A DNA stretch of 44,529 nucleotides, taken from positions 1-44,529 of the forward strand of contig JAIUMA010000023.1 of the NCBI GenBank assembly GCA_022565795.1. The letters run 5' to 3'. The translations under genes and the position numbers were made by a program. This DNA comes from Balneolia bacterium. Its GTDB lineage: Bacteria; Bacteroidota; Rhodothermia; Balneolales; Cyclonatronaceae. Of the stretch, positions 26,032-36,869 are shown in pieces (position 1 is the stretch's first letter; each line of letters starts with the position of its first letter). The notes below the pieces were generated by a model, which saw nothing but the letters and a program-made list of their open reading frames with translations, did no database searches and had not been told where the DNA came from.

Positions 26032-27399
26032 ATGATATTAGAACCCGAAATTCTCCAGTCCTACAAGGAGAAGTTTGAAAAAGATCTGTACTCACAAAAT
26101 GTGGCTGAAGCCGTATTAAGTGCACAAAATATATCTGCCGGCCGGGTCGCACAAATTCTGACCGATTCTGACGACACCCTGGTTGTTCCCTTTCTTGAAA
26201 AAGCTGATCAAAAGCAGGCCGGAAAAATCCTTGCTCACTTCTCTGCGGAAATGGCGGTGGAGATTTTAGGTCAGATGGACCCCAAAATTGCCGCAACTCT
26301 GCTCGATGACATTCCGATTGACCATGCGGCTGACATCATGCAGATTATGGATCCGGATGAGGCAAGCGAGCTGTTCAGCCACATCAATCCGAATCTGGAA
26401 AAGATGATTCGCGACCTTATGCGCTACGAATCCGGCACCGTGGGCGCGGTAATGAATTCGTACTTCACAGCCGTTAAATCCGGAACTACTGTTGCTAATA
26501 CCATCACCGCACTTCGCGATGCTCCTATACAGATTGAGAACAAAAACTATGTTTATGTTGTGGATGCCGAGGGCAAGCCCCAGGGCGTTATTTCAATGAA
26601 GGACTTGCTAAGGACCTCACCCGACAAGAAAGTCGACGAGTTTATGACGCCAAACGTGGTGGCCGTGCATACCGATGACGATGCCATCAAATCCTCCGAG
26701 CTGCTTAGAAACCGCCGGTTCCAAATGCTCCCGGTTATCAATGAAAATGACAAAATTGTTGGGGTGCTTCTGCTGGATGATGCCATCGAAATCCTCTCCA
26801 ATAACATGGCCGATATGTTCATGCACATGGGTGCTGCTTCAGCCGATGAGTCATTCTATACACCGCCGCTTGGCTCGGTAAAGAAGCGCCTGCCCTGGAT
26901 GGCCGGTAACGTATTCCTGAACCTCGGCGCCGTGGCCGTAATAGCCTCATTCGAAGCCACTATTGAAGCTGTAGCCGCCCTTGCGATTTTCCTTCCAATG
27001 ATTACCGATATGGGCGGGAACGTGGGTATTCAGGCCCTTTCGGTATCGATTCGAAGTATTGCGCTGGGTGAAGTCAGGATTACGGAATACTGGCGTGCTA
27101 CCAAAAAGGAAATTGCCGTCGGTCTGATTAACGGACTTGCTCTGGGTATTTTGTTTGCCATCATTGCCTACTTCATACAGGCTAACGTTACGCTCGGGCT
27201 TGTTGCCGGCGCGGCACTGGCTGCCAACGTTTTCCTCGCCGGTATAGTGGGCGGAACGCTCCCGTTCCTGATCAAGCGATTTGGCGGAGATCCTGCTATG
27301 ATGACCGGCCCCGTTCTCACGACCATCACCGATATTACGGGTGTTTCGATCTATCTTGGCCTGAGTACCTACTTCCTCGCCAGCCTGATCGGAGGATAA
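26032..27399 (+). CDS. mgtE: MgtE magnesium transporter
   Basis: A 455-residue MgtE channel for Mg2+ uptake in the inner membrane. The cytosolic N domain (about 1-135) is a superhelix with repeated ILGQMDPKIAATLLDDIP and IMDPDEASEL segments. Two CBS domains follow (about 140-265, ending GVLLLDDAIEIL), then five membrane helices with LPMITDMGGNVGIQALSV, the family pore motif, and a last conserved TGPVLTTITD. The CBS domains bind Mg2+ and close the channel when it is plentiful. The ATG at 26032 fits the family N-terminus. A terminator follows. Confidence 0.95.
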   Translation: MILEPEILQSYKEKFEKDLYSQNVAEAVLSAQNISAGRVAQILTDSDDTLVVPFLEKADQKQAGKILAHFSAEMAVEILGQMDPKIAATLLDDIPIDHAADIMQIMDPDEASELFSHINPNLEKMIRDLMRYESGTVGAVMNSYFTAVKSGTTVANTITALRDAPIQIENKNYVYVVDAEGKPQGVISMKDLLRTSPDKKVDEFMTPNVVAVHTDDDAIKSSELLRNRRFQMLPVINENDKIVGVLLLDDAIEILSNNMADMFMHMGAASADESFYTPPLGSVKKRLPWMAGNVFLNLGAVAVIASFEATIEAVAALAIFLPMITDMGGNVGIQALSVSIRSIALGEVRITEYWRATKKEIAVGLINGLALGILFAIIAYFIQANVTLGLVAGAALAANVFLAGIVGGTLPFLIKRFGGDPAMMTGPVLTTITDITGVSIYLGLSTYFLASLIGG

Positions 27400-27414
27400 A
27401 ACCAACCATTCTGA

Positions 27415-27466
27415 AGCCGCTTACTCCTTATGAGGAACTTCCCTCAACAGGAGTGGCGGCTTTTTC
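27415..27466 (+). terminator. Rho-independent terminator after mgtE
   Basis: AGCCGC and ACTCC on the left pair with GGAGT and GCGGCT on the right, with a one- or two-base bulge between the two stem parts and a 22-base loop. Five T and then CAATTTG follow. It separates mgtE from the broken reductase gene. Confidence 0.75.
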
Positions 27467-27490
27467 AATTTGTGCTTATAACTATCTTTT

Positions 27491-28801
27491 ATGCGATACT
27501 CAGCCGGCAACGGTATTCTTTGGCTGTGCATATATTTTGTTCTGGCTCTGATTCCCATTGGCATAGCACTAGCCGGTGACCTGCCGGAGCTGCGTTCATT
27601 CTGGATTGAGTTCGGCGTGGCGCTTGGATTTATCGGGCTGGCCATGTTTGCTCTGCAGTTTTTGTTTTCCGGTCGCCTGAGGCATATCGCCCCTGTTTTC
27701 GGGAATGACAACGTGCTGAATTTTCACCGGCAGGTCGGAATCACCGCTTTTTTCCTGGTTCTGGCTCACCCTGTAATCCTGCTCACGGCCGACCCTGCAT
27801 TCTGGGAATATTTTGACCCAAGAGTGAACTTCATGCGGGCCGTGTCTCTCAGCTTTGTAACCATAGCCATTGTAATGATAACGGTTACGAGCATCTGGCG
27901 CATCAACTTCAGGCTTCAATACGAGCACTGGAGGCTTATACATGGCCTGCTCGCCATGGCAATCGTAGGCATTGGCACAGCGCACGCGATTCAGGTTGGT
28001 CACTATCTCGAGCCATTCTGGAAAAAGGCAGCCTTAGCTATTTTGATGGGCTCTGTAATCTAGCTGGTAGTTCACACCCGAATCGTGAGGCCGTGGCTCA
28101 GCAGAAAGAAGCCCTACCAGCTGATGCACGTTAAGCGAGAAACAGGTGAAGCATGGACGCTCAACCTCAAAGCCATCAATCATGAAAGACCTTCTTTCAA
28201 ACCCGGACAATTTGCATGGATTACGGTAGGGCCAACTCCGTTTTCTTTACAGTAGCATCCATTTTCTCTTTCCTCGAGCGCAAGGTCGGAGTATCTCTCC
28301 TTTACTGCAAAACCGGAAGGTGATTTCACCTCAACCTGGGAGAATATGAAGCCCGGCACAACGGTGTTCCTTGAAGGACCCTTCGGCTCTTTTGTGCCCG
28401 AGCCCGACAGCAATCTGTTTCTCATAATGGGCGGTATCGGGGTTACTCCGGCCATGAGCATGCTTAGGACTATGCGCGACGACAAAGACAAACGTAAAGC
28501 TATCCTCATATTCGCCAATGAAACGTATGATGACATCATCTTCCTTCATGAACTCGAAGAGCTGAGCCGGGAAATTAATCTCGAGATAATTCATGTGCTC
28601 GAAAAAGCCGCTGATGACTGGGAGGGCGAGCGTGGTTTGATAGATGAAGAACTGCTCAGCAGATACATCCCCGAAAATCCGGAGGAGTTCATGTTTTTCA
28701 TCTGTGGCCCGGGCCCTTTAATGGACGTATCAAGCATCGCCTTGCACGACCTCGGTGTGGCATGGAACCATATTTACATGGAACGCTTTAGTATAGTGTA
28801 A
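27491..28801 (+). pseudogene. Ferric-reductase-like membrane oxidoreductase, broken by two in-frame TAG codons
   Basis: One frame runs from the ATG at 27491 to the stop at 28799, 436 codons, interrupted only by TAG at 28061-28063 and TAG at 28253-28255. The first part (190 codons) has about five membrane helices and the ferric-reductase-like histidines (FHRQVGITAFFLVLAHP, EHWRLIHGLLAM) that bind heme. The second part is an FNR-type FAD/NAD domain: SFKPGQFAWI, HPFSLSSSA (FAD), MGGIGVTPAMSM (NAD) and FFICGPGPLMDV. The sequence after each TAG continues the family fold in the same frame, so each is a nonsense change and not a frameshift. The intact gene would move electrons from NAD(P)H across the membrane. 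Confidence 0.82.
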
Positions 28802-28830
28802 GCTTCAATCGCCGAATGAGTTAGCAAGAC

Positions 28831-28947
28831 ATGAATGAGTTTGAAAAGAACCGAAAACTGCTTCATAAGATTATCCGACGATGCGGTGATTTTATCACCA
28901 TTTTATTTATAGTCGTCTGCGTTCTGTTTGCAACCCGCGGCTTCTAA
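28831..28947 (+). CDS. Small single-helix membrane protein
   Basis: A 38-residue frame starts at ATG 28831: MNEFEKNRKLLHKIIRRC, then a hydrophobic stretch (DFITILFIVVCVLFAT) long enough to cross the membrane, ending RGF. The basic N-terminus and one helix suggest a small membrane protein with the N-terminus inside. It lies between the broken reductase and the polytopic protein, 13 bases before the start of the latter, so it may be coupled with it. No family is recognised, and it could be chance. Confidence 0.45.
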   Translation: MNEFEKNRKLLHKIIRRCGDFITILFIVVCVLFATRGF

Positions 28948-28960
28948 ACGATGTGCCGTT

Positions 28961-29953
28961 ATGAACCTTCTTATTCCAGTAGCCTTGTCTGTTGCCGGAA
29001 TTCTTCTGGCAATCTATAAAAACTACCTCCGTGGCCGCAGCGACGTGCCGCTTGATTCTGAACCTGCCGAAAACCGGCCGGTCGAACATATCAAAAGCAT
29101 TCTTTTTCTCGAAGTTCCCATCGAACGGATTACGCTGGGCTATTTCGCGCTCACGGCCCTCACGTACAGCGTTTTCCTTATTTCGGGCATATCCGTTCCG
29201 GCCATTGACCATACTATTATACTGCTAAGCGGGGTTATGGTTTTCCTTCTGCAGTTTAAATGGGTGATGGCCTTCGGAGTAACAAAGCGTCTTGACTGGC
29301 GGGTGCTTGCTTTCCTGATTCTCACCACCGCCATTGGCGTTTCACTGGTGATGATTCGTCCGGAAGCGATAAGCGAAAGTATGCTTGTAGCCGCATTTCC
29401 GTACAATCTCACGGCTCATCTGCTCGGTTTGGTACTTGGATTAGGCGGCGCAATTGTGCTGGACATTATGATATTTCACTTCCTGAAAAACTTCACTATT
29501 TCGAAGCGTGAAGCGGTTATTATGCACCTGATATCACAGATGATCATACTGGGGCTGGCTCTATTGCTGGTGAGCGGCGTCGCATTAACATTCACCGACC
29601 CCGAAACCTACCTGGAAAATTCCCGCTTCCTTATGAAGATGACCGCCGTTCTGGTTGTGCTAATCAACGGAATAATTATGAATCTGTACGTAGCCCCTAA
29701 GATGGAACTCATTTCGCTTAAGAAAGAAGAGCTCTCCGGTAATGAACGGCTGGTAAATACAGCTTTTGTTGTTGGCGCCGTTTCTGCGGTATCGTGGTTT
29801 GCTGTTTTCTTTCTCGCCATGATCGATATACTCGAAACGTTCAGCTATGCAGCTCTGCTAATCGCATACATGCTTATTCTGTTTTCAGCCATTGGCGGCG
29901 GACTCATTACAAAGCGGCTGTTCGAGTCGAAAGCGAAAGCTGAGGAAAAGTAA
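28961..29953 (+). CDS. Polytopic membrane protein of unknown function
   Basis: A 330-residue protein with about nine membrane helices and few loops. Helix five contains AHLLGLVLGLGGAIVLDIM followed by IFHFLKNF, and helix six begins with MHLISQ; these buried histidines could bind heme or metal. The charged loop between helices 1 and 2 is cytoplasmic or periplasmic and short. I do not recognise the family with certainty. The frame is open from 28928, but ATG 28961 is the better start, since it begins a signal-anchor helix (MNLLIPVALSVAGILLAIY). It follows the broken ferric-reductase-like gene, and a redox link is only an inference. Confidence 0.75.
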   Translation: MNLLIPVALSVAGILLAIYKNYLRGRSDVPLDSEPAENRPVEHIKSILFLEVPIERITLGYFALTALTYSVFLISGISVPAIDHTIILLSGVMVFLLQFKWVMAFGVTKRLDWRVLAFLILTTAIGVSLVMIRPEAISESMLVAAFPYNLTAHLLGLVLGLGGAIVLDIMIFHFLKNFTISKREAVIMHLISQMIILGLALLLVSGVALTFTDPETYLENSRFLMKMTAVLVVLINGIIMNLYVAPKMELISLKKEELSGNERLVNTAFVVGAVSAVSWFAVFFLAMIDILETFSYAALLIAYMLILFSAIGGGLITKRLFESKAKAEEK

Positions 29954-29981
29954 GCAATATGTTTCGCGGCACGCCATCGCC

Positions 29982-31613
29982 CTATTTAAGCAGCGTCATA
30001 CTTCGGGTTAAACTTCCGGCGGGAGTATCAATTCTGTACAGATAGATTCCGGAGCTATGTGCAGCAGCATCCCAGCGTACGGTGTGGGAACCAGAGGAAC
30101 GGGCTTCGTCAACCAGCACGGCAACTCTGCGGCCAAGCATGTCGTAGACAGAAAGTCGCACATGGCCGGACTCAGCCAGCGCAAACCGGATGGCCGTTGT
30201 AGGATTGAACGGGTTCGGATAGTTTTGTTCGAGTGTGATACTCTCCGGCAGCTCTGCAACCGGCTCGGTCGAAGTGCCCGTCAATTCATTACCGTAAAGG
30301 GTGATGTCATCGAGGCGGAACTGAAAATCGCTGTTTTTCGAAAACCGAAGGCTCACATCCGATACCGACGGAATAGCAGTCAGCTCCACTTCAAAGAGCG
30401 TCCACTGGTTGGCCGACACTGCTGATTCATATTGAATCTCAAACCAGCTGCCGCCATTATCCAGACTGTATTCAATCAAAAAGGATTCTGTATCGCCGGT
30501 GTGCACGCCAAACGTAAGGCCGATGTCTTCATATCCTAAAACATCAATATTACTGATTGTGAGGAACCGCTGGCCGAGATTCATAAATACCAAGCCCCCA
30601 CCGCTCGCTCCCGGATAACCCTGGGACGGGATTGAGCTTCTGATATCCCCGTTGCCTTCAAAAGTAAGGTTTTCGTTATCGTAGCTATGGTCGCTAATCG
30701 GTGTTGTTGATGAAGGGTTTCCGAATGTTTCCGCAAAGATGATGTCAAATTCCGGATCGGGATCAGGGTCAGGAGTTGAGTCATCATCGGTAAAATAAGC
30801 CCGGCGAACCAGAGTAGTATCGGCAATAAAGGGGTTCACATTGCCCTGCCACTCTTCAATTTGAGACGTTCTCCACAGCTCATACTCGCCCACGTGATCT
30901 GCATTGTGCCAGCTTCTGAGCGCCTCAGACATCGAGCTAAAATAGTTTGGATCGCTCGCATCAGCCTGATTGCGGTAAATCGTATAGAAGTAAAACATGG
31001 CACGGGCCACATCACCCTGCATATCTTTTTTTACTTCAAAACGAATATCGCCGGACAGCGTAATTTTACTGTATTCGTCGCGGACTTCAACGGGAGGAGG
31101 CGTTGTTGTGAAGATGAGATTGCCTTCATCTCTGTTAACTTTGTTGTACCAGCGGTCTACGTCTTCATCAGGAATATCACCAAATTTGTAGTTTGCGCGG
31201 TCAGCATTTACGCGGATTTCACTGGCATAAAGGCTGTGCAAGTCACTTCGTGCCGGTTCATTTCCTGCTCCAAGAGATTGTGGCCACAGATGCTCGGCAT
31301 TTATACCGTTGCCACCCTGAAACGCATCGGCTCTTGGTGTTGAGGAATTCGGATCTACCGGTACTTCAAAATAGGTATACAGGCAAACCACCATTCCGTC
31401 GAAATTATCCAGAATGGTGTACATACGGTCGCGGGCTGTGTCGTACCCCAGCGTTTGGTTGGGCGTGTAGTTTTCGCGGAGGTATTCCAGCAGCTCTTCC
31501 CCGGTGCGGTCTCCTCCAATTTGCTGGTTCTGGGCATGAATAATTCCGGGTAGTAAAATGAATAACAGCAGGATGTTGAGAGTGAACTTCAGAGGAGCGT
31601 GGGACATATACAT
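29982..31613 (-). CDS. Secreted endonuclease I with T9SS sorting domain
   Basis: A 543-residue exported nuclease. A signal peptide (about 1-27, ending IIHAQ) precedes the endonuclease I domain (about 35-270), which carries the metal and catalytic motif NAEHLWPQS with His108, SDLHSLYASEIRVNADRANYKFG and NVNPFI. A 150-residue jelly-roll-like domain (LTISNIDVLG, DDITLYG) follows. The last 85 residues are a T9SS type A sorting domain ([21 protein letters not shown]). Endonuclease I enzymes cut DNA without strong sequence preference. The start is the first ATG of MYMSH; a second in-frame ATG is two codons later. It is convergent with the membrane-protein gene. Confidence 0.92.
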   Translation of the reverse strand: MYMSHAPLKFTLNILLLFILLPGIIHAQNQQIGGDRTGEELLEYLRENYTPNQTLGYDTARDRMYTILDNFDGMVVCLYTYFEVPVDPNSSTPRADAFQGGNGINAEHLWPQSLGAGNEPARSDLHSLYASEIRVNADRANYKFGDIPDEDVDRWYNKVNRDEGNLIFTTTPPPVEVRDEYSKITLSGDIRFEVKKDMQGDVARAMFYFYTIYRNQADASDPNYFSSMSEALRSWHNADHVGEYELWRTSQIEEWQGNVNPFIADTTLVRRAYFTDDDSTPDPDPDPEFDIIFAETFGNPSSTTPISDHSYDNENLTFEGNGDIRSSIPSQGYPGASGGGLVFMNLGQRFLTISNIDVLGYEDIGLTFGVHTGDTESFLIEYSLDNGGSWFEIQYESAVSANQWTLFEVELTAIPSVSDVSLRFSKNSDFQFRLDDITLYGNELTGTSTEPVAELPESITLEQNYPNPFNPTTAIRFALAESGHVRLSVYDMLGRRVAVLVDEARSSGSHTVRWDAAAHSSGIYLYRIDTPAGSLTRSMTLLK

Positions 31614-31809
31614 GTTCGATAAAAAGGAATAATTAAGATGAATATAGTAATTAATCCCATCGCAACGGCGACCAATTGCGTAATCAACTGAAGCCCAAAC
31701 ACTTATGGTAAATAATGTGAATTGAAACTGTTATTTGCATCCAAATCTCCATATATTAAAAAATTCTAAATTACAGGTGTGTTTTATACATTTACGGGTA
31801 AGCAAGGCT

Positions 31810-33624
31810 ATGGCAAGCAAGAGTAAAAAAAACAGTCCCTGGCGCATTCTTGAAGAAACGGAAACGCTGGCAAGAACAGGGAGCTGGGAGCTAAATCTAA
31901 AAACGGATGAGCTAATCTGCACAAACGGTGTCTATCATATTTTAGATACAGAGCCCGGATCTTTTGATATCAACTTTAAAAAGGGTTTTGAGATCGTGCA
32001 TCCGGATGACCGGGACATGGCTTCCGCACATATGCGGGAAGTACTCGAAAAAGGGGTTGAATATAATATCCGCAAACGACTGCTTACTCCGGGCGGGAAA
32101 ATAAAACACGTTGTTTCCAGAGCTCACGTTATTCGGGATGAAAGCGGAGAAGCCATCAAATTAACCGGCGTTTTCCGTGATATCACCTCAGAAGTAGAGG
32201 AAAATCTCAAGCTGCGGGATATCAAAAATCATCTTGAGCAAACCATTCACTCGGTCAATGGTATTATTTGGGAAGCTTCGGCTAAAAATCTACAGACCAC
32301 CTACGTTAGCCCTCAGTCAGAAAACATATTAGGGTATAAGCCGGAAATGTTTTTAACTAAAGCCGGTTTTTGGAAAAGCCTTTTGCACCCTGATGATGCT
32401 GATGCTGTACTCGCGAAAAGCCAAAAAGCTGCAGACACGGCTACTGGTACGGTGCTGGAATACAGAATTCGAAATTCTGAAGGAACATATATCTGGCTTC
32501 AGGATTCCCTTAGCCCGGTTATCGGCAATGGGAAGTGCATCGGCCTCAGGGGATTGATGAGAGACATTACTCCTCAGAAGCAAACATCAGAACTGTACAA
32601 CAAAAGCGTCGACGACCTTAGAAAAAGCGAACGGCGATTCCGGGCACTGGTTCAGGATGGTTCAGACCTCACCGCAGCCATAAAAAAGGACGGCTTCTAC
32701 GGCTACACCACTCCGAATTATTACAATTTACTGGGTTATACTTCTGAAGAGCTAAAAGACATCAACGCCTACTCGCTCGTCCATCCCGATGATGCACACA
32801 AACTAAAAGCTCTCGTCAAAGATTTGGAACCTGGTGAACGGGTTAAGTTTGATAAGTACCGGTTTCGCGATAAGCAGGGCAAATGGAGATGGATGCAAAG
32901 CGTTTGTACAAACCTGCTTAACGAACAAAGCATAGAAGGTTATATCGTAAACAGCACCGATATAACAGATTTGATTGAAACGCAGCTCACCCTTAAAGAA
33001 AGCAATGATCGATTCAACCTGATCAATAAAGCAACCAATGATGCGATATACGACTGGGACATAATAGAAGACCGATTTATCTGGGGGGATGGGTTTAAAC
33101 GTATTTTTGGCCACGATACGACCGGCAGAATATTCCGAATGGAAGACTGGGCTGAGCTGGAGCATCCGTCCGACAAGAAAAAGTTTCACCTTGAATGGAA
33201 AGACTTTTTAGACGACCCTGAACAGTTTAAATGGCAAAACGGTATTCGTATCCGCAAAGGGGATGGAGCGTATGCATATATTGAGGAAATCGGACACATG
33301 ATCCGCGATAAGGCGGGAAAACCGGTTCGAATGATTGGTGCTATTCGAGATGTATCTGAACACAAGCAACAACAGATCAGAAACGAGATGCAGCAACATA
33401 TTTCGCGTATGTTTGCACAAAGCCATAGCTCTAAACAGGCGCTGCATGAACTTACAGAGTATCTTACCGATTACGGAGACTTTGGATTTTGTGAAGTCTG
33501 GCTCAAAGGCCAGATGAGCAGTAGTCTAAACCTTGCGGCCTCGTATGCATCTGGAAAACCCGGAGAGCTGTTTCAAAAAGCCTCATCCAGTATAAAAAGC
33601 CTCATCCAGTATAAAAAGCCTTAA
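31810..33624 (+). CDS. Multi-PAS histidine kinase, N-terminal fragment (frameshifted)
   Basis: The first 604 codons of a large sensor kinase, from ATG 31810 (a TTG at 31735 gives a longer frame without family support). It holds four PAS/PAC modules, in order near 31850-32200, 32240-32570, 32630-32970 and 33000-33360. HPDD motifs recur in the first three and a GAIRDVSEH end closes the fourth. The start of a GAF-like domain follows (FGFCEVWLKG). No membrane helix is seen, so the sensor is cytoplasmic. The frame ends early at 33624 because of a 19-bp tandem duplication at 33575-33612; the in-frame continuation is the ORF at 33650. PAS modules sense small ligands, light or redox state. Confidence 0.85.
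   Translation: MASKSKKNSPWRILEETETLARTGSWELNLKTDELICTNGVYHILDTEPGSFDINFKKGFEIVHPDDRDMASAHMREVLEKGVEYNIRKRLLTPGGKIKHVVSRAHVIRDESGEAIKLTGVFRDITSEVEENLKLRDIKNHLEQTIHSVNGIIWEASAKNLQTTYVSPQSENILGYKPEMFLTKAGFWKSLLHPDDADAVLAKSQKAADTATGTVLEYRIRNSEGTYIWLQDSLSPVIGNGKCIGLRGLMRDITPQKQTSELYNKSVDDLRKSERRFRALVQDGSDLTAAIKKDGFYGYTTPNYYNLLGYTSEELKDINAYSLVHPDDAHKLKALVKDLEPGERVKFDKYRFRDKQGKWRWMQSVCTNLLNEQSIEGYIVNSTDITDLIETQLTLKESNDRFNLINKATNDAIYDWDIIEDRFIWGDGFKRIFGHDTTGRIFRMEDWAELEHPSDKKKFHLEWKDFLDDPEQFKWQNGIRIRKGDGAYAYIEEIGHMIRDKAGKPVRMIGAIRDVSEHKQQQIRNEMQQHISRMFAQSHSSKQALHELTEYLTDYGDFGFCEVWLKGQMSSSLNLAASYASGKPGELFQKASSSIKSLIQYKKP
33575..33621. repeat. 19-bp tandem duplication that shifts the frame
   Basis: The unit AAAAAGCCTCATCCAGTAT occurs at 33575-33593 and again at 33594-33612; nine more bases repeat its start. 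Removing one unit joins the two kinase ORFs in frame, giving SSSIKSLNKDEGLPGKVTT across the junction. Confidence 0.95.
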
Positions 33625-33649
33625 CAAAGATGAAGGGCTTCCAGGCAAA

Positions 33650-36091
33650 GTGACTACCAGTGGAGATATCGTAATTTGTGATCAGCTGCAGAGCGCCGAT
33701 TACTTTGTCCGCCGCAAAGAAGCTGATGACTCCGGTATAAAATCCGTATTCGCGATGCCGTTATCAGCCAATAACGAAAATATTGGTGCACTGATGATTG
33801 GAAGCGCCAAGTTTTTTGGCCAGGACAACAGCAGGACGGATTACCTTACGCTGCTTGGAAATATCATAGGTGGTGAGATTGTGCGAAAGCATCAGGAAGA
33901 GGAAATGCAGCAGCTTTTCGAACACGCTCCTGAAATTCTCGGCGTTGCGTCTCCGAGCGGTTATTTCCACAAGGTAAATCCGGCCTTTTGCAAAGCGCTT
34001 GGTTATACTAAAGAAGAACTGATTTCTCGTCCGTTCAAAGAACTGCTGCACCCTGAAGACCTGGAAAAAACCCTGCGCGAGTTTGATGAAACCAAGAATG
34101 CCACAAGGTATGCGAAAAACTTTCTGAACCGCTACAAAACAAAAGACGGCGAGTATCGCTGGATAAGCTGGGATTCTTCCGATGTTATTAATGAGGAAGG
34201 TGCTGTTTTTGCTTTCGGCCGTGATGTCACTGAGCTGGTTAAGCTTGAGCAAGTAGCCAATAATGCCAATCAGTTATCCAGAATTGGCGCATGGGATATA
34301 AACATCAAAACCAACCTTGTTTATTTCTCTGAAATGACCAGCAAGATTTTTGGTCTGGAGCCCGGCAAATCGCCTCATGTAGATGAAGCATTGAGCTTTT
34401 ACCCGCCGGATGTGCAGAAACAGCTGATTTTATGCATCGAAAAGTGCCGAATCGAGGGCATCCCATGGGACCTTGAGCTGCAAATGAAAGACAGCAAGGG
34501 CAAGCCGGGCTGGGTTCGCTCTATTGGTCGAAGCGAGTTCGTAAACGGTGAGTGCGTCCGTTTGTTTGGAAGCGTACAGGATATCACAGACCGAAAATTG
34601 TCAGAAGTACAGCTTACGCAAACTCTTAAAGAGAAGAATACGCTTCTCGAAAGCATTGGCGAATCGTTTTTCTCAATAGACCGCAACTGGACCGTATTAT
34701 ATTGGAACAAACGTGCTGAAGAACTCATGGGAATCAGCCGTGATGAAATCCTTGGCAAGAATATCTGGGAAATATACCCCGATGCCAAAGCTATGAAATA
34801 CTACAAAGAGTATGTTCAAGCTTTTGAAACCGGGGAGCCTGCAGAGTTTACAGAACAGTTCAACACCGGTGAGCGTAACGCCTGGCTACAGGTTAACGCC
34901 TACCCTGCTGATGGAAATATGAGTATTTTCATCAGGGACATCACCGAAAAGAAAATCGGAGAAGAGAAGCTACGGCTTTCTAACGAGCGCTTTAAAAGGG
35001 TTACCGAAGCTACAAATGATGCAATCTGGGACTACGACGCTGAAAAAAATGAGCTTTTCTGGGGCAAGGGTTTCAACGTGCTGTTTGGTTATGACGACAG
35101 CATAAAGCCTGCACTTGAGCTGGTAATTAGCAAAGTACATCCGGATGACCGTCAGAGGATATTCCAGAAAATAAGCGATTATATGGCCCCCGGAACCGTA
35201 ACAAACTGGTTTGAGGAGTATCGTTTTCAAAAGGGTGATGGTACCTATGCACTGGTTATCGACCGGGCTGTATTCATTCGTAATGAAAACGGGCATGTTA
35301 TCCGCGTTGTTGGTGCAATGACCGACATCTCCTACCGGAAAGAGTATGAAGAATCGCTGAAGAAGCTTAATTCCGAGTTGAAACGGCAGGCGCATGAGCT
35401 CACTATTTCAAACCGGGAACTCGAACAGTTTGCCTATATAGCTTCCCATGACCTTCAGGAACCACTACGCATGGTTACCAGCTTCCTAACCTTGCTCAAA
35501 AAGCGATATGGCCACCTCTTCGACGATAAAGCGCATCAGTACATTCATTTTGCCGTAGACGGCAGCAAGCGAATGAGGGAAATCATACTCGACCTGCTCG
35601 AATACTCACGCGTTGGTAAACATGAGGACAAGGTCGAACAAATCGAGGTTTCTGAAATCATTGAAGAGGTACGCCTGCTTCAAAAAAGAGTAATTGACTC
35701 CAAGAACGCAGAAATTATAACACATAATCTGCCGGTTCTGTCCTCCTACCGCACGCCCTTAACGCTGGTGTTCCACAACCTTGTTGAAAACGCGCTCAAA
35801 TACAGCCGGAAAGACAGGACACCGATTATTGAAATCCGTGCCAGGGAAGAAACTAGCGACTGGATTTTCACCATCACCGATAACGGTATCGGTATCGAAG
35901 AGCAGCATTTCGATAAGATATTCATCATTTTCCAAAGGCTTCACAGCAAGGAAGAGTATCCCGGAACAGGAATGGGGCTGGCCGTTGTAAAAAAGACCCT
36001 CGAGAGTCTGGGTGGTGAAATCTGGGTGGAATCTGTTGCAGACAAAGGCTCTGCATTCCACATCTCGCTTCCCAAAGAGATAAAGCACTAA
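33650..36091 (+). CDS. Multi-PAS histidine kinase, C-terminal fragment
   Basis: The rest of the kinase, 813 codons, open from GTG 33650; ATG 33755 is a plausible restart if translated alone. It holds the end of the GAF-like domain (KSVFAMPLSANNENIGALMIGS), four more PAS modules (near 33900, 34250, 34620 and 34970), the HisKA dimerisation helix with the phospho-accepting His in IASHDLQEPLRM (codon at 35447), and an HATPase_c domain with HNLVENALKYS, DNGIGI and PGTGMGLAVVKK. There is no receiver domain, and the partner response regulator is not in the window. If the 19-bp duplication is removed, the full protein has 1420 residues with eight PAS modules. Confidence 0.88.
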   Translation: MTTSGDIVICDQLQSADYFVRRKEADDSGIKSVFAMPLSANNENIGALMIGSAKFFGQDNSRTDYLTLLGNIIGGEIVRKHQEEEMQQLFEHAPEILGVASPSGYFHKVNPAFCKALGYTKEELISRPFKELLHPEDLEKTLREFDETKNATRYAKNFLNRYKTKDGEYRWISWDSSDVINEEGAVFAFGRDVTELVKLEQVANNANQLSRIGAWDINIKTNLVYFSEMTSKIFGLEPGKSPHVDEALSFYPPDVQKQLILCIEKCRIEGIPWDLELQMKDSKGKPGWVRSIGRSEFVNGECVRLFGSVQDITDRKLSEVQLTQTLKEKNTLLESIGESFFSIDRNWTVLYWNKRAEELMGISRDEILGKNIWEIYPDAKAMKYYKEYVQAFETGEPAEFTEQFNTGERNAWLQVNAYPADGNMSIFIRDITEKKIGEEKLRLSNERFKRVTEATNDAIWDYDAEKNELFWGKGFNVLFGYDDSIKPALELVISKVHPDDRQRIFQKISDYMAPGTVTNWFEEYRFQKGDGTYALVIDRAVFIRNENGHVIRVVGAMTDISYRKEYEESLKKLNSELKRQAHELTISNRELEQFAYIASHDLQEPLRMVTSFLTLLKKRYGHLFDDKAHQYIHFAVDGSKRMREIILDLLEYSRVGKHEDKVEQIEVSEIIEEVRLLQKRVIDSKNAEIITHNLPVLSSYRTPLTLVFHNLVENALKYSRKDRTPIIEIRAREETSDWIFTITDNGIGIEEQHFDKIFIIFQRLHSKEEYPGTGMGLAVVKKTLESLGGEIWVESVADKGSAFHISLPKEIKH

Positions 36092-36098
36092 AGCCCGA

Positions 36099-36869
36099 TT
36101 ACAGCTTCATCTCAGACATGGTTTTGAACACCCGGTAGGCCGTAAGATCATATTGTATAGGCGTTACGGAAGCATAGCCATCATTCAGCACGTTTACGTC
36201 TATATCGAGCGCGTCATCAAGTATTTCGAGGCGTCCGGTAATCCAGTAGTAGGGCTTGTTCATCGGGTCTTTACGCGGAATGTACTCATCCGTGTAGCGC
36301 GAATCGCCCTGTCGCGTCCACTTGATACCTTTAAAAGGCCCGGCTGGAGCATTAACATTTAGGGTGATGCCCTTGGGCAGGCCGTTTTCGAACACAAAGC
36401 TGATGGCACGGGCCGCAGCTTCCTGCGCTCCGCTCATATCGGCATCCTCGCTGAAATCCATACAGCTAACCGCAATCGACGGATAGCCCAAAATAGTGCC
36501 TTCCGTAGCCGCACTCACCGTTCCGGAATAGATGATATTTATTCCCGCATTCGAACCGTGATTAATACCGCTCAGAACCAAATCAGGTTTACGGTCCAGA
36601 AGCTTATCGGTAGCCAGCTTCACGCAGTCGGCAGGCGTACCGTTTACAGCGATTCCGTTCATTCCGTTTTTCATTTCAAACGATTGGGCACGAAGTGGAT
36701 CCGAAATGGTGATGGAGTGCCCCACCGCGCTCTGCTGGCGATCGGGAGCCACTACGACCACATCACCGAAGCGCTGGGCAACCTCAACAAGAGCCCGAAT
36801 TCCTTTAGAAAAAATACCGTCGTCGTTGCAGACCAGAATCAGTCTGTCTTGTTTAGAAATGCTGCTCAT
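36099..36869 (-). CDS. surE: 5'/3'-nucleotidase SurE
   Basis: A 256-residue metal-dependent phosphatase that removes phosphate from nucleoside monophosphates and is linked to stationary-phase survival. The N-terminal VCNDDGIFSKGI, with Asp16 and Asp17, binds the metal; DRQQSAVGHSIT and SGINHGSNAG are the other signature blocks, and YSGTVSAATEG follows. The gene ends eight bases from the convergent kinase gene. Upstream on the minus strand come panB and fabZ, a probable operon fabZ-panB-surE. Confidence 0.95.
   Translation of the reverse strand: MSSISKQDRLILVCNDDGIFSKGIRALVEVAQRFGDVVVVAPDRQQSAVGHSITISDPLRAQSFEMKNGMNGIAVNGTPADCVKLATDKLLDRKPDLVLSGINHGSNAGINIIYSGTVSAATEGTILGYPSIAVSCMDFSEDADMSGAQEAAARAISFVFENGLPKGITLNVNAPAGPFKGIKWTRQGDSRYTDEYIPRKDPMNKPYYWITGRLEILDDALDIDVNVLNDGYASVTPIQYDLTAYRVFKTMSEMKL

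Follow-up and report, generated by a model that had tools for sequence, protein, structure and literature searches.

The question raised by this locus is whether a short tandem duplication inside the gene of a giant sensor kinase works as a reversible on/off switch, or is the mark of a recent loss of the kinase. The window, by which we mean the whole stretch of 44,529 nucleotides that was analysed from a Balneolia bacterium, carries at 33575..33621 of the forward strand a 19-bp perfect tandem duplication of 2.5 units, in which two precise head-to-tail copies of the unit AAAAAGCCTCATCCAGTAT (33575-33593 and 33594-33612) are followed by a partial third copy, AAAAAGCCT (33613-33621), exactly as the preliminary description had given it in sequence and in position. 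This is by far the top tandem array of the window, with a TRF score of 94 vs. 48 for the runner-up, and its self-match at lag 19 extends over 28 bases vs. maxima of 10-12 bases in simulated sequences, the simulation background being five first-order Markov sequences of the window. No second occurrence of the 19-bp repeat was found in the 3.59-Mb draft genome, even with three mismatches allowed, and a DNA search in 60 relatives returned no close copy of the duplication site; there was also no match in a blastn search of plasmids or in the viral contigs scanned for the exact one-unit pattern. As the tandem-repeat background, 400 kb of this genome were sampled; further tandem repeats exist there, but none divides a long gene into two overlapping reading frames, and a 14-bp tandem repeat examined in contig C3 splits no gene either. 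Heptanucleotide tandem repeats (CAGTGAG x5.6, AACTGTC x3.7, and others) occur elsewhere in the genome, at L063:2836-2874, L052:8734-8759, L068:1860-1892, and L054:1669-1687, several of these heptanucleotide repeats adjoining gene ends, and a congener also has similar AATGGTG/AATTGTG repeats (L150:4388-4419).

The 19 bp added by the duplication, not being a multiple of three, shift the frame by +1 inside the GAF domain of a PAS/GAF histidine kinase. The frame that starts at ATG 31810 stops at TAA 33622-33624, immediately 3' of the repeat array, and this N-terminal half (31810..33624, forward strand) contains the beginning of the GAF in addition to several PAS_3 domains. The C-terminal half (33596..36091, forward strand) lies in another frame, open from 33596 to 36091, and its first residues are the remainder of the GAF_2 domain, followed by PAS domains, HisKA, and HATPase_c; its earliest start codon is GTG 33650, located 25 bp past the stop of the first half, and it is open over 813 codons. 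The overlap of the two frames (33596-33621) measures 26 nt and includes A5 runs and AAA-AAG stretches. Without the extra unit, (36091-31810+1-19)/3 gives 1421 codons including the stop, or 1420 amino acids, and the earlier claims that removal of one unit produces a single 1420-codon frame from 31810 to 36091, and that the duplication splits the giant kinase within its GAF domain, are borne out by this arithmetic, by the frames, and by the stop at 33624. Because the shift falls in the middle of the GAF domain and translation ends there, the sequenced genome, as judged from the reading frames, cannot yield the full-length PAS/GAF/HisKA/HATPase kinase, and we infer that the function of this kinase is lost rather than shared between two polypeptides.

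In the rest of its length, the kinase gene is well preserved. The PAS, HisKA, and HATPase_c domains exceed the Pfam cut-offs, as does GAF_2 for the C-terminal piece, none of the H, N, and G kinase motifs is damaged, and neither half contains a further stop or frameshift apart from the duplication. The gene has one attribute of a pseudogene, namely a disrupting mutation vs. intact homologues, and shows no decay past this first lesion. In either half, a stop would result from about 4.2-4.6% of all single-base changes that are possible, so that neutral drift should bring in one further stop for about every 1% of substitutions per half. The lack of a second lesion would be consistent only with a recent event; the clean sequence may mean that the duplication is young, that the downstream half is still used, or that the state is reversible. 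The best full-size paralogues of the kinase within the genome are intact. As a separate observation, the GAF at 33640-33690 lacks both Trp residues of the GLPGxVWx7W motif kept by most homologues (here GLPGKVTTSGDIVIC), possibly reflecting a divergent ligand pocket or relaxed constraint.

The sequence relatives of the kinase belong to Balneolaceae/Balneolia and to other Bacteroidota groups, which most likely makes the host a member of Balneolota. For the kinase itself, its domain order and GAF-PAS block are found at 31-48% identity in many homologues, the nearest being only about 48% identical. When some 70 homologues from Balneolota and Bacteroidota were aligned, the N-terminal and C-terminal halves overlapped by exactly KASSSIKSL, and the true GAF homologues having sequence on both sides all pass through the duplication point in one open frame with normal spacing, the usual short GLPG motif following this point. 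Extra residues at the duplication point are absent from these approximately 70 GAF homologues, no split kinase was seen among them, and neither the 19-bp unit nor its 9-bp repeat is present at the DNA level in the 17 loci checked. Uninterrupted homologues devoid of the unit indicate that the two-unit state is, on the evidence of the alignments, derived, and they support the one-unit state as the ancestral one.

As to the origin of the duplication, the one-unit form reads AAAAAGCCT-CATCCAGTAT-AAAAAGCCT, i.e., a 9-bp direct repeat with its copies 10 bp apart, placed at both ends of the unit in its single-copy state; in the present array, the first copy of this microhomology lies at 33575..33583 and the last at 33613-33621, both on the forward strand. 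Since the two AAAAAGCCT copies of the one-unit form sit in different codon phases, their match is a coding coincidence and not a conserved element. Direct repeats of such size are ordinary, not rare: the window has 17 self-matches that are 9 bp or longer and lie within 60 bp (two of them from the array) vs. 7-11 in the simulations. A 9-bp direct repeat is the usual trigger of slippage or microhomology-mediated tandem duplication, and we propose that two AAAAAGCCT repeats pre-existed 10 bp apart in the kinase gene and that replication slippage (or microhomology-mediated repair) between them would have produced exactly the observed array, whose additional 19 bp move the frame by +1 in mid-GAF and bring translation to an end. 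The 9-bp repeats would then be the cause of the duplication. Slipped-strand reversion, to which every perfect tandem repeat of this type is open, is plausible, and reversion to one unit may take place at an appreciable rate.

The genomic surroundings are also informative. The kinase gene stands alone between an opposite-strand gene for an endonuclease I-like secreted protein with a Por secretion tail, its upstream neighbour (29982..31613, reverse strand), and the convergent surE downstream (36099..36869, reverse strand). The nearest congener (G002) has a surE protein 92% identical and a panB protein 94% identical to those of the window, and two of its contig ends (C297 and C111) overlap by exactly 121 bp within the endonuclease gene, from which the order reductase, g28928, endonuclease I, surE, and panB is deduced. 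In this congener, only about 115 bp separate endonuclease I from surE, no kinase remnant was found between them, and no close kinase orthologue was found elsewhere in its genome, where the N half is at best 32% identical, and 48% is reached solely within the kinase core. In G004 and G005, two further congeners, and on a short contig of a third (G003), surE is followed by a homologue of the window gene 25078, which in G004 and G005 adjoins surE directly, and therefore the 26-36 kb region of the window (26032-36091) is a variable stretch, flanked by two neighbours that are conserved. This variability, together with the congener site devoid of the kinase, marks the kinase, by comparison of gene order, as an accessory gene, either gained in the sequenced genome or lost in the congener. 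A second broken gene, encoding a ferric-reductase-like NAD-binding oxidoreductase (27491..28801, forward strand), carries in-frame TAG codons at 28061-28063 and 28253-28255 and lies 5 kb from the duplication, and its orthologue in G002 is intact, with 444 codons open and with Tyr and Gln at the TAG positions (C111). Recoding of TAG in this oxidoreductase gene was rejected because TAG is the normal stop of 8 of the 33 window genes examined. With two genes broken inside 9 kb, relaxed selection is favoured over a tuned switch, and the kinase is probably located in a region undergoing gene loss.

All this bears on the functional switch that had been put forward at the outset, in which the 19-bp unit would be gained and lost by slipped-strand change and would thereby toggle the kinase reversibly in the population. 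Such phase variation would suit a perfect tandem repeat of non-3n length in a gene whose remainder is undamaged, the clean downstream half could reflect frequent reversion, and reversible microhomology tandem duplications are reported, as far as the summary in PMC13207564 goes, in the kinase gene ssp1 of fission yeast. However, the repeat is conserved in none of the approximately 70 homologues, no tract of varying unit number was found in orthologues, the genus having no close orthologue, and the array is of 2.5 units only, unlike selected contingency tracts. The switch is further disfavoured by the lack of the kinase from the corresponding locus in the nearest congener, by a neighbour decaying through independent and unrelated nonsense mutations, and by the 400-kb genome sample, devoid of comparable gene-splitting repeats. 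We consequently find the functional switch unsupported and regard toggling in the population as quite unlikely; with the repeat tract not conserved, nothing that can be read from the DNA suggests an evolved switch. The recent loss, mentioned earlier as the alternative to the switch, fits better with a congener site without the kinase and with a broken neighbouring gene. Most likely, the array is a recent loss-of-function tandem duplication that arose by slippage or microhomology between 9-bp repeats in an accessory kinase gene, and it has the appearance of an ordinary mutation of recent date that hit a dispensable gene, one for which reversion is possible in principle. There is little probability that, in the natural population, the 9-bp repeats cause the unit to be gained and lost frequently, thereby silencing and restoring the kinase in subclones.

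An error of assembly or sequencing, or the path of a minor strain, would imply that in reality the genome carries a single unit and the kinase is intact, and this is unlikely in our view: the genome is a draft in 145 contigs, and one unit gives a perfect frame in a gene otherwise undamaged, but the 47-bp array does not reach the length of an ordinary read, graph assembly with short k is more prone to collapsing such repeats than to adding units, and, with the neighbouring gene broken too, a decaying region is not unexpected here. It is very unlikely that the two pieces form a working split kinase, with the N-terminal PAS half terminating at 33624 and translation starting anew at GTG 33650 to give a C-terminal half freed from the upstream sensor domains. 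The long open C-terminal half, which keeps HisKA and HATPase undamaged and has a start codon closely following the stop, would allow it, and its clean sequence could reflect its use as a separate protein; nevertheless, the break falls within the GAF fold, so that each piece is left with half of the domain, a split form was not seen among the homologues, and no promoter-like site was found ahead of the second half, although the promoter and terminator scans carried little information, giving sites no more numerous than in shuffles. Ribosomal +1 frameshifting in the overlap at 33596-33621, still yielding some full-length protein, could make use of the 26 nt shared by the two frames and of their AAA-AAG stretches, but this overlap was created by the duplication alone and is not conserved, no known +1 stimulator is visible, and the product would gain about six residues within the GAF domain, all of which makes it extremely improbable.

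Simple-sequence-repeat contingency loci are the means of bacterial phase variation by slipped-strand mispairing, and the kinase tract is like them in being a non-3n repeat that alters the frame in a coding region, and unlike them in having 2.5 units only, in not being conserved, and in belonging to an accessory gene. The protein itself shares its domain order and GAF-PAS block with the multi-PAS/GAF sensor histidine kinases of Balneolota/Bacteroidota that have HisKA and HATPase_c, and it differs from them in its split gene and in a GAF without the two Trp of GLPGxVWx7W. With the microhomology tandem duplication (MTD) of S. pombe ssp1 (Dan et al. 2021), reversible and located inside a kinase gene in the account summarised in PMC13207564, the present case has in common the short direct repeats flanking the segment in its single-copy state, the precise head-to-tail duplication with a frameshift and a premature stop in a kinase gene, and an expected reversion by recombination or slippage; in contrast with what that summary describes, it is bacterial, and only one event was seen. 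In the literature searched, an exact precedent from a bacterial sensor kinase was not found.

Taken alone, the duplication is one ordinary mutation. It nonetheless illustrates neatly how large accessory kinase genes are broken by short direct repeats that were already present, and it advises looking for the decay of neighbouring genes and for an empty syntenic site before calling a short tandem duplication a phase switch. If frequent reversion were true, the locus would be a useful case of an unselected yet reversible gene silencing, and if gain and loss of the unit took place in the population, it would be a bacterial counterpart of the reversible microhomology tandem duplication.
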